DNA of 64,000 nucleotides from Halopseudomonas sabulinigri (GTDB lineage: Bacteria > Pseudomonadota > Gammaproteobacteria > Pseudomonadales > Pseudomonadaceae), in the NCBI RefSeq assembly GCF_900105255.1, contig NZ_LT629763.1, positions 2,604,001-2,668,000 of the forward strand, given 5' to 3'. This document shows, piece by piece, positions 45,714 to 50,323 of this stretch. How positions within the stretch are numbered: the stretch's first letter is position 1; every line of letters begins with the position of its first letter. Both the position numbers and the translations under genes were made by a program. The notes under the pieces were generated by a model. It was not told the DNA's origin and ran no database searches. It was given only the letters and a program-made list of their open reading frames with translations.

Positions 45714-45825
45714 AATTCAGACTCCTGACTGATGACGACTCCAGAACCGCGTCTGCGACGTTTATACTCTGCGCAGGATGAATTCCCAACCTCATTTTCT
45801 TCCCACAGCAAGGTGGCAACCGCGT

Positions 45826-46164
45826 ATGAGCAATGAACTGGCAATCAATGACATTCAACTCGGTGACGGCAAGGAATGCGTCAAAGGCGCCTTGATTACC
45901 GTGCATTACACCGGCCGCCTGGACGATGGCAGCGTGTTCGACTCCTCGCATCAGCGCGGCAAGCCCTTTCAGTGCGTGATTGGCACCGGCCGCGTGATCA
46001 AGGGCTGGGATCAGGGCCTGATGGGCATGCGTGTGGGTGGCAAGCGCGAACTCTACGTACCCTCTCATCTTGCCTATGGAGAGCGCAGCATGGGACCAAT
46101 CAAGGCGCACTCCAATCTGCGCTTCGAGATCGAGCTGCTGGAAGTACTCACCCGTGATGATTGA
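45826..46164 (+). CDS. FKBP-type peptidyl-prolyl isomerase
   Basis: 112 aa, a single FKBP domain without signal peptide, so cytoplasmic. Core pattern: VHYTGRLDDGSVFDSSHQRG, FQCVIGTGRVIKGWDQGLMGM, GGKRELYVPSHLAYGER and the C-terminal LRFEIELLEV. Active-site aromatic and Asp positions are kept. The start at 45826 is chosen for its AAGGTGG site; an ATG 16 codons upstream has no usable spacing. It is divergent from tag. Confidence 0.9.
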   Translation: MSNELAINDIQLGDGKECVKGALITVHYTGRLDDGSVFDSSHQRGKPFQCVIGTGRVIKGWDQGLMGMRVGGKRELYVPSHLAYGERSMGPIKAHSNLRFEIELLEVLTRDD

Positions 46165-46247: not shown

Positions 46248-46622
46248 ATGGTCAGGTATCGGTTTATCTACCAATTCGGTTTGACCATGCTGGCTTATCT
46301 GCTCAGTGTGGTCGTCAGCAGTCAGCTGCTGACAACGCCCCACGGCGCTTTCCTCTCCATCGCTCTCGCGCTGCTGCCCGTACCCTTTCTCTGCCTGATG
46401 GCAACGGCGGTGGTGCGACAATTGCGCCGCATGGATGAGCTGGGGCAGCGCATTCAGCTCGAAGCCCTGGGTCTGGCTTTCGTAGGCAGCGCGCTGATTA
46501 CCTTCAGCTACGGATTTCTGGAAACTGCCGGCTTCCCCCGCTTGTCCATGTTCTATGTCTGGCCATTGATGGGCAGCCTGTGGGCGCTGGGTTGTGTGCT
46601 CGGCGTAAGGCGCTACCGTTGA
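46248..46622 (+). CDS. Small four-helix membrane protein, partner of XRE regulator
   Basis: 124 aa with about four hydrophobic segments (residues about 8-27, 33-55, 75-97, 103-118) and no recognised catalytic motif. GGAGG 7 nt upstream fixes the start at 46248 within a longer frame. The stop overlaps the TTG start of the XRE gene. Pairs of a small membrane protein and a roughly 65-aa XRE regulator are common in bacteria, but their job is not known to me. Confidence 0.78.
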   Translation: MVRYRFIYQFGLTMLAYLLSVVVSSQLLTTPHGAFLSIALALLPVPFLCLMATAVVRQLRRMDELGQRIQLEALGLAFVGSALITFSYGFLETAGFPRLSMFYVWPLMGSLWALGCVLGVRRYR

Positions 46623-46816
46623 AAAGCCGTCTGCGCGAGCTGCGCAGCGCCCAGGGCTGGTCTCAGGGCGAACTGGCCAGCCGTATCGGCGTATCGCGAC
46701 AGACCATCAATGCGATCGAGCAGGAGAAGTACGATCCCAGTCTGCCACTGGCCTTCAAGCTGGCGCAGGTATTCAGCCTGCCGATAGAAGCGATTTTCAC
46801 GCCGAGCGGCGACTGA
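46619..46816 (+). CDS. Small XRE/Cro-type regulator
   Basis: 65 aa, all helix-turn-helix: RLRELRSAQGWSQGELASRI followed by GVSRQTINAIEQEKYDP and the ending FSLPIEAIF. TTG start at 46619 overlaps the preceding stop (TTGA) and has TAAGGCG about 9 nt upstream. Upstream in-frame codons lie inside the previous gene. It is likely an autoregulator acting at the TGTAAAG boxes. Confidence 0.85.
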   Translation: MKSRLRELRSAQGWSQGELASRIGVSRQTINAIEQEKYDPSLPLAFKLAQVFSLPIEAIFTPSGD

Positions 46817-46847
46817 GTACGCAAAAAACACCGCGAAGGAGATAAGG

Positions 46848-47864
46848 GTGAACGCCGAGCAACTGCAATTTAATCTGGACCCGGTCATCCAGCGTTTGCT
46901 GGAGGAGGCCTATAGCCTGCTGGCCGCTTTGCCGCTGCTGCTGTTGGCGCTGATCATGGTCTGGCTGTGCTGGGCGTTGGGTGGCTGGTTATCGCGCCGC
47001 GCCCTGCTGGAGCGCGTGGCCTCACGCAACCCGTTCATGCGCGACCTGACCCGCACCACGGTGCGCTGGTCGGCGACGCTGATTGGCGTGCTGATCGCAT
47101 TGGAGATCATGAATGCCACCGCACTGGTGGGCGCGGTCCTGGGCACCGCCGGGGTGCTCGGCGTCGCCCTCGGCTTTGCCTTCAAGAACACCATGGAGAA
47201 CTACCTTGCCGGTATTCTCATGAGTCTGCGCCAACCCTTTGCGCCCAAGGATCACGTAGTCATCGACGGCAATGAAGGGGTAGTGGTGGCGCTGACCTCG
47301 CGTGCCACTGTGCTGATGACCCTGGATGGCAACCACCTGCGCATCCCCAACGCCCTGGTGTTCAGCAGCGTCATGCTCAACTACACGCGCAACCCCAGCC
47401 GCCGTTTTGCCTTTGATGTGGGCATCGGCGTTAACGAAGACCTGGTGCGCGCCCAGCGCATCGGTACCGACAAGCTCAATGCCCTCGATGGTGTGATGGA
47501 TACCCCGCCGCCGCGGGCCTATATCACGGCGCTGGGCGATTCCAACGTGCAGGTGCGCTACCATGCCTGGGTAGATCAGCGCTCCCACGACTTCGTTAGC
47601 GTCAAGAGTGAAGCCATTCGTCAGGTCAAGCTCGCGCTGGAAGCAGCCGAGATGGACATGCCTGAGCCCATCTACCGGGTGCAGATTACCGAACGCGGCA
47701 GCGCCCCGCAGGCGACAGCCAGCGCGCAGGCCAGCAGGCAAACAAGCGCCGAAGACGCCGCTATCGATATGCGCGTAAAGCCCGACCTGGACGCCCAGAT
47801 CGCCCAGGATCAACATCAGCGCGGCAGTGAAGATCTGCTTGATCCTAACGCCCCCCGCGAGTAG
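46848..47864 (+). CDS. MscS-family mechanosensitive channel
   Basis: 338 aa. It has two or three N-terminal transmembrane helices, then the pore-lining helix and conserved cage entry (GTAGVLGVALGFAFKNTMENYLAG, split around residue 105), a beta domain VVIDGNEGVVV and the C-terminal alpha-beta domain. The last 50 residues are a polar, low-complexity tail. GTG start with AAGGAGA upstream. It releases solutes on osmotic downshift. No strong terminator is seen other than the attenuator at 48008, which could also serve this gene. Confidence 0.9.
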   Translation: MNAEQLQFNLDPVIQRLLEEAYSLLAALPLLLLALIMVWLCWALGGWLSRRALLERVASRNPFMRDLTRTTVRWSATLIGVLIALEIMNATALVGAVLGTAGVLGVALGFAFKNTMENYLAGILMSLRQPFAPKDHVVIDGNEGVVVALTSRATVLMTLDGNHLRIPNALVFSSVMLNYTRNPSRRFAFDVGIGVNEDLVRAQRIGTDKLNALDGVMDTPPPRAYITALGDSNVQVRYHAWVDQRSHDFVSVKSEAIRQVKLALEAAEMDMPEPIYRVQITERGSAPQATASAQASRQTSAEDAAIDMRVKPDLDAQIAQDQHQRGSEDLLDPNAPRE

Positions 47865-47890
47865 CCCCGCCAGCCGCCGCAAGATGCCGC

Positions 47891-47920
47891 TTGACCCACC
47901 CAAGCGCAAGCGGCTACATT
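47891..47920 (+). promoter_or_regulatory. Candidate promoter of the ilvA leader
   Basis: TTGACC (47891-47896) and TACATT (47915-47920) with an 18-bp spacer. A start about 7 nt downstream would put the transcript 5' end at or next to the leader ATG (47928), i.e. a leaderless leader ORF, which would explain why no ribosome-binding site is visible. Confidence 0.45.
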
Positions 47921-47927
47921 CAAGCCC

Positions 47928-47993
47928 ATGAACAAACCCGCACAGCTGCGCGCACAGATGATTATGACCGCCATTCCCATATCGGCGGGCTAG
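47928..47993 (+). CDS. Candidate ilvA leader peptide (21 aa, Ile-containing)
   Basis: Short frame ATG...TAG ending MIMTAIPISAG: three Ile codons (ATT 47961, ATT 47973, ATA 47979) and one Thr in the last ten codons. Its 3' end overlaps two pairing segments of a downstream terminator structure, and the next gene makes the first enzyme of isoleucine synthesis. There is no Shine-Dalgarno site, so translation would depend on a leaderless transcript. It is too short for similarity evidence; the call rests on architecture. Confidence 0.6.
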   Translation: MNKPAQLRAQMIMTAIPISAG

Positions 47994-48033
47994 CTACGTG
48001 CGCACCCAAACCCGCCTTCGAGGCGGGTTTTTT
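47968..48033 (+). terminator. Four-segment attenuator ahead of ilvA
   Basis: Segment 1 CCGCC (47968-47972) can pair with segment 2 GGCGGG (47984-47989). Segment 2 can alternatively pair with segment 3 CCCGCC (48011-48016). Segment 3 with segment 4 GGCGGG (48022-48027) forms the terminator AAACCCGCC-TTCGA-GGCGGGTTT followed by TTT. Segments 1 and 2 lie inside the leader ORF with Ile codons at and just before segment 1. The terminator is certain as a hairpin; the switching is inferred. Confidence 0.7.
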
Positions 48034-48071
48034 GTAACGTCTCCAAGGCCAAAGCGATTTCAGGAGACAAC

Positions 48072-49148
48072 ATGAACACCGCCGTACCCGCCCTCACCAG
48101 CACACCGCCACCGACCGCCGAACCCCAACCGGTAGACGATGGCGTGAGCGACCTACCCCGCGCGCGCCTGAAACAGCTGGTCACCCGCATTCTCTCGGCG
48201 CCGGTCTACGATCTGGCGGTGGAAACCCCGCTGCAGACTGCTGCGGGGTTATCAGGCCGGCTGGGCAATCAAGTGCTGCTCAAGCGTGAAGATCTGCAAC
48301 CGGTGTTCTCCTTCAAGATTCGCGGCGCCTATACCAAGATCGCGCGGCTCAGCGAGACCGCCCGCGCCAAGGGCGTGATCACCGCGTCTGCCGGCAACCA
48401 CGCGCAGGGCGTCGCCCTTGCGGCGCAAAAACTCGGCATCCAGGCGCTGATCGTCATGCCCACCACCACCCCGGCGCTCAAGATCGAGGGCGTGCGCTCC
48501 CGTGGTGCTACAGCGCTGTTGCACGGCGAAGCCTTCCCTGCGGCTCTAGCCCATGCCCTGCAACTGGCCGAGCAGTACGGCTACACCTTCATCCCGCCGT
48601 TCGACGATCCCGACGTGATCGCCGGACAGGGCACGGTGGCCGTGGAAATTCTGCGGCAGCAGGGCGGCCAGCTGGATGCGATCTTCGTCCCGGTGGGCGG
48701 CGGCAGTCTGATCGCGGGCGTTTCCGCCTATGTGAAATACCTGCGCCCGGACGTCCGCATCATTGGCGTAGAATCGGAAGAGTCCGCCTGTTTGCAGGCT
48801 GCTTTGGCGGCAGGTGAACGCGTTACCTTGCCCAAAGTAGGGCGCTTTGCCGATGGCGTCGCCGTCGCCCAGGTCGGTTTGAACAACTTCGAAGTGTGCC
48901 GCCATTACGTGGACGAGGTGATCACCGTCAGCAACGACGCCATCTGCGCCGCCGTGCGGGACATCTACGACGATACCCGCTCCATCACCGAACCTTCCGG
49001 CGCCCTGGCGGTGGCCGGTCTCAAGCAGTACGTGGGGCGCGAGCAATGCCGCGATCAGGTACTGGTGGCCATCAACTCCGGCGCCAATATCGATTTCAAC
49101 AGCCTGGGTTATGTGATTGAGCGGGCCGGGGTGATGGCGCGAGGCTAA
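48072..49148 (+). CDS. ilvA: Threonine ammonia-lyase without the regulatory domain
   Basis: Deaminates threonine to 2-oxobutyrate, the entry to isoleucine synthesis. 358 aa against roughly 500-515 for the usual biosynthetic enzyme. The PLP lysine is in [10 protein letters not shown] (about Lys82), with [12 protein letters not shown], the glycine loop [12 protein letters not shown] and the Ser/Thr in [12 protein letters not shown]. The protein ends about 20 residues after INSGANIDF, precisely where the ACT-like feedback domain of IlvA begins. The space to glyQ cannot hold a remnant. It is more like IlvA than TdcB in its core. RBS AGGAGA, ATG 48072. Confidence 0.9.
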
Positions 49149-49185
49149 GCTGCACCCATCACCTGTACGTCAGCGTCATTGCATC

Positions 49186-49206
49186 CCGCCGGCAAGGCAC
49201 CGGCGG
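49186..49206 (+). terminator. Possible hairpin terminator after ilvA
   Basis: CCGCCGG-N7-CCGGCGG, a perfect 7-bp GC stem 38 nt after the ilvA stop but with no T-run. A second stem GCCAGGC/GCCTGGC follows at 49233-49253. Either may end ilvA transcripts with Rho, or act in the glyQ 5' leader. Confidence 0.4.
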
Positions 49207-49375
49207 CCACGCCACTGAATCGCCGCAGCCTAGCCAGGCCAACTCTGCCTGGCCGCGAACGCGCTCCCGATTTGCGCGCTCGCCCCAGCAAATCCGCCGC
49301 TTTCCTGTATGTTGCCCCCTATCTGAATGTATACTTCGGCCTTTCTTTATTTCGCAGCCTACCCCGGTGAAAAAC

Positions 49376-50323
49376 GTGACTCAGACCAATCCAGCCGTCC
49401 ACACCTTCCAAGGACTGATCCTTGCCCTACAGAGCTACTGGGCAGAGCGGGGGTGTGTGGTACTGCAGCCCTACGACATGGAAATGGGCGCCGGCACCTT
49501 CCATACCGCGACCTTCCTGCGCGCCGTTGGCCCGGAGAAGTGGAACGCCGCTTATGTACAGCCCAGCCGCCGCCCGGCTGACGGCCGCTATGGCGAGAAC
49601 CCCAACCGCCTGCAGCATTACTACCAATTCCAGGTGGTGCTCAAACCGAACCCTGACAACATCCAGGAGCTGTACCTCGACTCGCTGCGCCACATCGGCG
49701 TCGACCCGCTGGTACACGACATTCGCTTTGTTGAAGACAACTGGGAATCGCCCACACTCGGCGCCTGGGGTCTGGGTTGGGAAGTCTGGTTGAACGGTAT
49801 GGAAGTGACCCAGTTCACCTATTTCCAGCAGGTCGGCGGCGTCGAATGCTATCCGGTGACCGGCGAGATTACCTACGGTCTGGAGCGTCTGGCGATGTAC
49901 CTGCAGGGCGTGGATTCGGTCTACGATCTGGTCTATTCCGATGGCCCCTTCGGCAAGGTCACTTACGGCGACGTGTTCCACCAGAACGAGGTAGAGCAAT
50001 CAACCTTCAACTTCGAGCACGCCAATGTCGACAAGCTGTTTGAGCTGTTTGACTTCTACGAGAGCGAAGCCAATAGGCTGATCGAGCTGGAGCTGCCGCT
50101 GCCGGCCTATGAAATGGTCATCAAGGCCTCGCACACCTTCAACCTGCTGGATGCTCGCCGCGCCATCTCGGTGACCGAGCGTCAGCGTTATATTCTCCGT
50201 GTCCGCACATTGTCCCGCGCGATTGCCCAGAGCTACCTGCTGGCCCGCGCTCGCCTCGGCTTCCCGATGGCCACCCCCGAATTGCGTGATGAAGTACTGG
50301 CCAAGCTGAAGGAGGCCGAATGA
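49376..50323 (+). CDS. glyQ: Glycyl-tRNA synthetase alpha subunit
   Basis: 315 aa, class II synthetase subunit carrying the catalytic core: [47 protein letters not shown] (read in parts), [21 protein letters not shown]. The start is GTG at 49376 with GGTGA 5 nt before it; the GTG three codons upstream overlaps that site. This gives the usual 315-aa length. The stop overlaps the glyS start. Confidence 0.96.

Follow-up and report, generated by a model that had tools for sequence, protein, structure and literature searches.

A putative isoleucine attenuator ahead of a short ilvA gene in Halopseudomonas sabulinigri matches the Rfam family P9 and carries a coevolving fifth segment

Introduction

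In the window, by which we mean the whole stretch of 64,000 nucleotides of Halopseudomonas sabulinigri DNA that was analysed, a small open reading frame containing three Ile codons and a hairpin followed by six T precede ilvA, which codes for a threonine ammonia-lyase. The locus raises the question of whether this leader places ilvA under isoleucine control through attenuation or whether the RNA serves another purpose. A preliminary description had proposed an attenuator and had left room for the hairpin being no more than the terminator of the upstream gene. In the open-licence PMC literature, of which mostly titles and the beginnings of abstracts were covered, and in passages of PMC8632094, PMC2659441, PMC5542712, PMC2965389, and PMC9437257, we found no recognisable description of isoleucine attenuation ahead of ilvA in a pseudomonad or of a function for P9, the RNA family to which the leader was assigned in this study. 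ilvA2 is among the genes altered in an srbA deletion, and no attenuator is mentioned in the available part of that report (PMC5542712).

By comparing the locus with its relatives, we came to regard the leader as an attenuator through which a translating ribosome adjusts the short ilvA to isoleucine, with a probability of roughly 0.9. This reading rests on sequence comparison, and the absence of expression, termination, or translation data counts against it.

Results

Anatomy of the ilvA leader

The element and its surroundings (47891-48072 and flanking genes) comprise the following features.

46848..47864, + strand: upstream gene, outside the element, named mscS in the preliminary description (domains not scanned)
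47891..47920, + strand: promoter-like site of the sigma-70 type, TTGACC-18-TACATT, 9/12 matches in a promoter pattern scan
47928..47993, + strand: leader open reading frame of 21 codons, MNKPAQLRAQMIMTAIPISAG, start ATG at 47928, stop TAG at 47991-47993 (direct reading, relatives)
47961..47963, + strand: control Ile codon ATT (direct reading; distance from codon to segment 2)
47968..47972, + strand: segment 1, CCGCC (direct reading; 1:2 covariation)
47973..47975, + strand: second Ile codon ATT, too near segment 2 for a productive stall
47979..47981, + strand: third Ile codon ATA, likewise too near segment 2 for a productive stall
47984..47989, + strand: segment 2, GGCGGG, partner of 1 or 3 (direct reading, alignment)
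48011..48016, + strand: segment 3, CCCGCC, partner of 2 or 4 (direct reading, alignment)
48020..48027, + strand: segment 4, GAGGCGGG, the terminator 3' arm plus the last two loop bases (GGCGGG part at 48022-48027), partner of 3 or 5
48028..48033, + strand: U-tract of the intrinsic terminator, six T (direct reading)
48038..48048, + strand: segment 5, CGTCTCCAAGG, partner of 6, or of the end of 3, the loop, and 4
48063..48068, + strand: segment 6, GGAGAC, the ilvA Shine-Dalgarno sequence, complement of GTCTCC at 48039-48044
48072..49148, + strand: ilvA, start ATG at 48072, threonine ammonia-lyase of 358 aa, Pfam PALP only

On direct reading, the 21-codon frame with its three Ile codons, segments 1-4, the six T, and the ilvA gene behind them proved to lie exactly, base by base, where the preliminary description had put them. 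The stem with its six T has the form of an intrinsic terminator. This terminator (48011-48033) is absent from the list of the pattern scanner, presumably because the scanner lengthened the stem at the expense of the T run and too few T were left. A T-box covariance model found no match in 46500-50000 of the window at E up to 5. Folding of the single sequence is weak evidence for attenuation (z -1.92, with 7/200 shuffles folding as well or better); it is conservation across relatives, and not this fold, that lifts the element above chance.

The preliminary description had a ribosome stalled at the early Ile codons cover segment 1. This holds for the codon at 47961, which is 23 bases before segment 2, and fails for those at 47973 and 47979, which are only 11 and 5 bases before it; from this geometry, we infer that a ribosome would have to stall at 47961 to cover segment 1 while keeping segment 2 available for pairing. 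In support of attenuation, all 31/31 sequence clusters have one or more Ile codons that begin 15-36 bases ahead of segment 2. For the cluster of L019, which the script had read in the wrong frame, the true leader ends KRITITP and the position of the Ile codon was counted by hand. Less favourably, the window leader has a single Ile codon in a useful place, whereas two to five are found in 27/31 clusters.

No Shine-Dalgarno sequence was seen before the start of the leader frame at 47928. Among 177 non-redundant leaders, 161 have a TTGA[CA] box 21-50 bases before an in-frame start, at a distance of 34-38 in 160 and 41 in 1, and a Shine-Dalgarno-like tetramer precedes the start in 13/161 boxed leaders. 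If a leader offered more than one start or box, the distance nearest 35 was taken, and the tightness of the 34-38 range is therefore somewhat favoured by the method; in shuffled upstream sequence, such a box occurred in 4.6% of cases. The leader thus looks leaderless, with a putative -35 box 34-38 bases ahead of the start, and its RNA is inferred to begin probably at about 47926-47928, at or beside the AUG. The promoter-like site directly ahead of the leader counts in favour of attenuation. The short reading frame ahead of the regulated gene is kept in relatives, and its translation is inferred only.

The ilvA product of the window lacks Thr_dehydrat_C. The other ilvA of the same genome codes for 509 aa with Thr_dehydrat_C, and no such element or leader was present in its upstream region. 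That the enzyme with the regulatory domain has no such leader favours attenuation, which could replace the missing feedback control of the window enzyme.

Conservation at Pseudomonadaceae ilvA loci

From ilvA matches in 244/248 genomes, 80 loci were drawn, not at random: 30 were the best matches, and 50 were selected manually so that the genera were covered. At 50/80 loci, we found the element together with an Ile-codon leader; at the other 30, we did not. In the hand-picked set, a search for segments 2-4 that made no demand on the leader was positive at 20/50 loci, all 20 of which also carry an Ile-codon leader; the remaining loci (L031-L060) have both in 30/30 cases. The leader search demanded at least two Ile codons. 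Where the start is visible, the 30 element-free loci precede a long ilvA starting M-L-E-Q-Y-V-K-K or nearly so, and the 50 others precede a second kind of ilvA, either short (window, PALP only) or long with Thr_dehydrat_C (e.g., L042); this distribution also supports attenuation. We looked among the relatives for the refuting pattern, in which the terminator is kept and the leader, the Ile codons, or segment 2 are lost, and did not see it. The comparison with relatives proposed in the preliminary description supports isoleucine attenuation, though not by experiment.

Among the matches listed, an exception is formed by P. congelans, P. viridiflava, P. capsici, and others, which we take to be the P. 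syringae group: the element stands 85 to 159 bases before ilvA (45 at L208), and the downstream ilvA resembles the other kind (L163, L169, L203, L246, L249, and others). At L069 and L072, by eye, a repeat-like insert between segment 5 and ilvA pushes the gene away from the switch. Two mutually similar loci from genus-mates of the window organism (L040 and L041) keep the terminator stem and segments 1-6 and have lost the U-tract (GGCGGGTAATCAG). The loss counts against the attenuator reading and is as expected if control of translation can persist alone.

Pairing of segments 1-4

The RNAalifold consensus of 60 leaders consists of 2:3 and 4:5. Pairing of 2:3 was present in 100% of cells, with pair 42:79 being C-G in 41, U-G in 14, and U-A in 5 leaders. 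In alignment A1, the 1:2 pair 23:42 is formed by G-C in 41 leaders and by A-U in the other 19, so that both sides have changed in 19/60; for the 3:4 pair 79:89, this is the case in 5/60 (3 unpaired), and most remaining core pairs are invariant. The joint covariation score of 1:2, 3:4, and 5:6 was reached by 0/500 shuffles, a control that leaves sequence relatedness in. This shortcoming and the modest z-score of the single fold both weaken the case for attenuation. Column-wise covariation of 2:3 plus 4:5 did not exceed that of shuffles (score reached by 415/500) because there is hardly any variation in the columns of the core. What signal there is comes from the terminator loop, which alignment places poorly, and a duplex permutation test was therefore used for segment 5.

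Free equilibrium folding with ribosome masks was rejected as a test, as 3:4 stayed in most leaders in every state without discrimination. With a ribosome at the Ile codon, the terminator was kept at a mean of 0.89 (51 ilvA leaders) and 0.83 (17 kinase leaders), which counts against attenuation and means that the switch must be kinetic.

A fifth segment and the ilvA Shine-Dalgarno sequence

Segment 5 lies beyond the U-tract and can therefore act only on read-through RNA. The duplex test used one representative for each of 31 clusters (single linkage, alignment score 0.75). It dropped 35/122 listed pattern rows, which had no start with a Shine-Dalgarno sequence within 90 bases or whose hairpin was unparsed, and omitted 10/81 earlier rows: L011, L016, L023, L026, L031, L114, and L119 were excluded deliberately (they belong to the other ilvA type or to cimA, or repeat the window), and otherwise L069 and L072 (no start nearby) and one duplicate. 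Own 4:5 partners reached -19.7 kcal/mol, as against -15.4 kcal/mol for permuted ones, a result matched by 0/10,000 permutations, and they beat the mean of the others in 29/31 clusters. The signal persisted after removal of the 12 strongest clusters (0/10,000), within 16 kinase clusters (0/10,000), and within 6 ilvA clusters (101/10,000). No signal came from the sequence that separates segment 2 from segment 3 (9553/10,000). Examples of the duplex are CCCAAUAC with GUAUUGGG (L210) and GAUGGCGGG with CCCGCCAUC (L218). Judged from this permutation test, the fifth segment coevolves with the terminator loop and 3' arm.

These pairings suggest six segments with two locks: in RNA that leaks past 3:4, pairing of 5:6 would hide the Shine-Dalgarno sequence and leave ilvA untranslated, while formation of 2:3 would allow 4:5 and keep the Shine-Dalgarno sequence open. 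We consider the evidence for this arrangement to be evenly balanced. The strong coevolution of 4:5 and the persistence of segments 1-6 without a U-tract at L040 and L041 speak for it, but the own segment 5 binds best of all in just 4/31 clusters (within the best four in 15/31), the column-wise test of 2:3 plus 4:5 was null, and coevolution of 5:6 is weak: 114/10,000 permutations overall (139/10,000 in another run), p 0.035 with a narrower window, 3960/10,000 within the ilvA (6) clusters, and 1840/10,000 within the kinase (16) clusters. In a folding model that leaves the last two bases of segment 3 free, the Shine-Dalgarno sequence has an openness of 0.43 (ON) versus 0.22 (OFF), being higher by >0.1 in the ON state in 17/31 clusters and lower by >0.1 in 2/31; the mean difference was reached by 0/200 shuffled and 3/200 swapped sets. 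For the window, the values are 0.79 versus 0.20, with 4:5 formed and 2:3 taking the first four bases of segment 3. When segment 2 was made to hold all of segment 3, however, ON/OFF values were 0.19/0.19 (51 ilvA leaders), 0.28/0.24 (17 kinase leaders), and 0.32/0.42 (3 NTF2 leaders), and this full masking was set aside as giving no clear switch. Opening of the Shine-Dalgarno sequence thus depends on the folding constraint chosen and is only moderately supported by modelling.

Identity with P9, spread, and targets

Positions 47958-48031 match Rfam RF00624, 'Pseudomonas sRNA P9', with 65.3 bits and E 6.1e-13, which passes the gathering threshold (cut-off 43). Rfam classes the family as 'Gene'; to our knowledge, its entry gives no function. 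In the order, the P9 model matched 47/390 genomes at E up to 0.001 and 16/390 above the family cut-off; this search was run under a strict filter, and several weak matches are due to chance. The matches inspected were 30 loci and 10 further places, not all, and L029, L030, L111, L113, L115, L118, and L120 were judged by eye not to be attenuators. Our own model, R1, matched 33/381 genomes in the order and 5/369 in the class, with the window genome counted. A pattern scan of named genomes gave at least 120 loci; the 3:4 hairpin was present in 117 of those listed and in 2/2 viral contigs, that is, in 119/122 listed pattern loci. Sources other than Pseudomonas among the matches listed include Vibrio, Amphritea, Marinomonas, Achromobacter, Rhizobium, and Geomesophilobacter. 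A gene start follows shortly downstream in most listed pattern loci and was not found in some, partly since the sequence stretch ends. The P9 cut-off was passed by 8/12 further loci before AAA_33 kinase, NTF2-like, and IleS genes, the failing ones being L126, L159, L210, and L114.

Several targets other than ilvA were found. A cimA-like gene follows at L026 (scanned) and L114 (by eye); such a citramalate-synthase-like gene is the entry to an ilvA-independent isoleucine route. IleS is the target in two Marinomonas, at L244 (M. spartinae; scanned, with DUF5915) and L267 (M. rhodophyticola; from the printed start and length), and at both (L244:3685-6970) the leader ends in LTQQRIIIIIPRSGGFVVE and its stop ahead of an IleS of 1057 aa. 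M. spartinae has another IleS elsewhere, in a frame of 941 codons, and the switch-borne IleS may therefore act as a spare enzyme whose synthesis is turned on upon failure of charging. The cimA-like and second-IleS targets fit isoleucine.

NTF2-like genes are targets alone or before ilvA (L006, L276, and L229 scanned, others by eye). At L229, L232, L255, L262, L226, L183, L006, L112, L122, L124, and L125, the switch is followed by NTF2/SnoaL-like genes coding for about 131-142 aa, with several proteobacterial groups represented, and in some Pseudomonas such a gene lies between the switch and ilvA (L042; by eye L043, L047, L048, and L076). The GNAT acetyltransferase at L126:1643-2221 shows similarity to the GNAT portion of an IleS fusion model: its best NCBIfam match is the IleS-with-GNAT-domain model NF040702 (E 1.1e-17, 63 bits), the full-length cut-off of which, 1999, is far higher. 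AAA_33 kinases follow at L157 and L276 (scanned) and L182 (by eye); on the phage-like viral contigs L276 and L277, the switch precedes an NTF2-like gene and an AAA_33 kinase. A further target, a P-loop kinase of about 172 aa, is predicted to have an adenylate/shikimate kinase fold (AlphaFold mean pLDDT 90.7, Foldseek TM about 0.5-0.6). Homologues occur in 17/293 genomes of the order, and 14/17 of these loci carry the element (L293 counted by eye); L294 does not, and L298 and L301 could not be judged. The kinase loci behind the switch include L159, L285-L293, L295-L297, L299, and L300.

Discussion

We propose that transcription would begin at or near the leader AUG. With ample Ile-tRNA, the ribosome would reach the stop codon and cover segment 2, 3:4 would form, and transcription would end near 48033; the terminated short RNA would be what Rfam names P9. 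With scarce Ile-tRNA, the ribosome would wait at the Ile codon at 47961 and cover segment 1, 2:3 would form, and RNA polymerase would continue into ilvA; in the read-through RNA, segment 5 could pair with segment 4 and the loop of the terminator. The anatomy, the conservation, and the coevolution of the pairings are observed, and the start of the RNA, the stall, the termination, and the response to isoleucine are inferred. The two-lock arrangement extends this attenuator rather than replacing it. The identity with P9, the wide occurrence, the fifth segment, and the lack of a regulatory domain in ilvA go beyond the preliminary description.

A more comprehensive reading, which we advance only tentatively and would not bet on, is that P9 is a horizontally spreading six-segment isoleucine switch, in which one stalled ribosome sets both read-through and the opening of the Shine-Dalgarno sequence (4:5 versus 5:6). 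Targets other than ilvA and cimA, namely the second IleS of Marinomonas, the GNAT and NTF2-like proteins, and the two families of small P-loop kinases (one on phage-like contigs), would then answer failed charging of Ile-tRNA. As part of the same tentative proposal, the kinases and GNAT may modify an IleRS inhibitor or may repair a step in the supply of Ile-tRNA.

The Rfam family and the element in the window are the same, and they differ in that Rfam types P9 as an RNA gene. The alternative that P9 acts in trans, as a small RNA having a promoter and a terminator of its own and an incidental reading frame, would agree with that type and with the promoter-like site and terminator, but it leaves unexplained why 31 clusters preserve Ile codons and their spacing to segment 2 and why a gene start follows shortly downstream in most listed pattern loci; we hold it to be very improbable, and a by-role of the terminated RNA in trans is not excluded. 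Although mscS precedes the hairpin in the same orientation, we can practically dismiss it as a mere mscS terminator, since mscS is missing at L040 and L041 (where the upstream frame ends in EIELLEVLTRDD, by eye the equivalent of window gene 45778-46164) and the element still accompanies ilvA, mscS and the leader are separated by a promoter-like site, and a plain terminator needs no segments 1, 2, and 5.

The attenuator can be set beside known systems. With the E. coli ilvGMEDA, ilvBN, trp, and his leaders, it shares codons for the product amino acid, alternating 1:2, 2:3, and 3:4 pairings, and an intrinsic terminator. Unlike them, it has one to a few Ile codons instead of mixed Ile/Leu/Val runs, serves a single enzyme gene, is apparently leaderless, and has a conserved fifth segment past the U-tract. 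The trpL attenuator of Sinorhizobium meliloti has a leader peptide starting at the first base of the RNA, as is inferred here, but it uses Trp rather than Ile and is not known to have a segment 5. The Bacillus subtilis trp leader with TRAP combines transcription attenuation with sequestering of the Shine-Dalgarno sequence in the read-through RNA, as the two-lock arrangement would; there, a protein senses tryptophan, whereas the window element would use a stalled ribosome for both steps.

As far as the open-licence PMC literature searched shows, the link between P9 and isoleucine attenuation is new, as are the fifth segment, the start of the leader that looks leaderless, and the broader range of targets. 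If correct, our reading would supply a mechanism for a family catalogued among the small RNAs and account for how isoleucine could still control an ilvA that lacks a regulatory domain. It would also provide a conserved case of a terminator arm that is seemingly re-used downstream, perhaps to gate translation, and its occurrence ahead of a spare IleS and of kinases of unknown substrate would make the switch a handle on the purpose of those genes.
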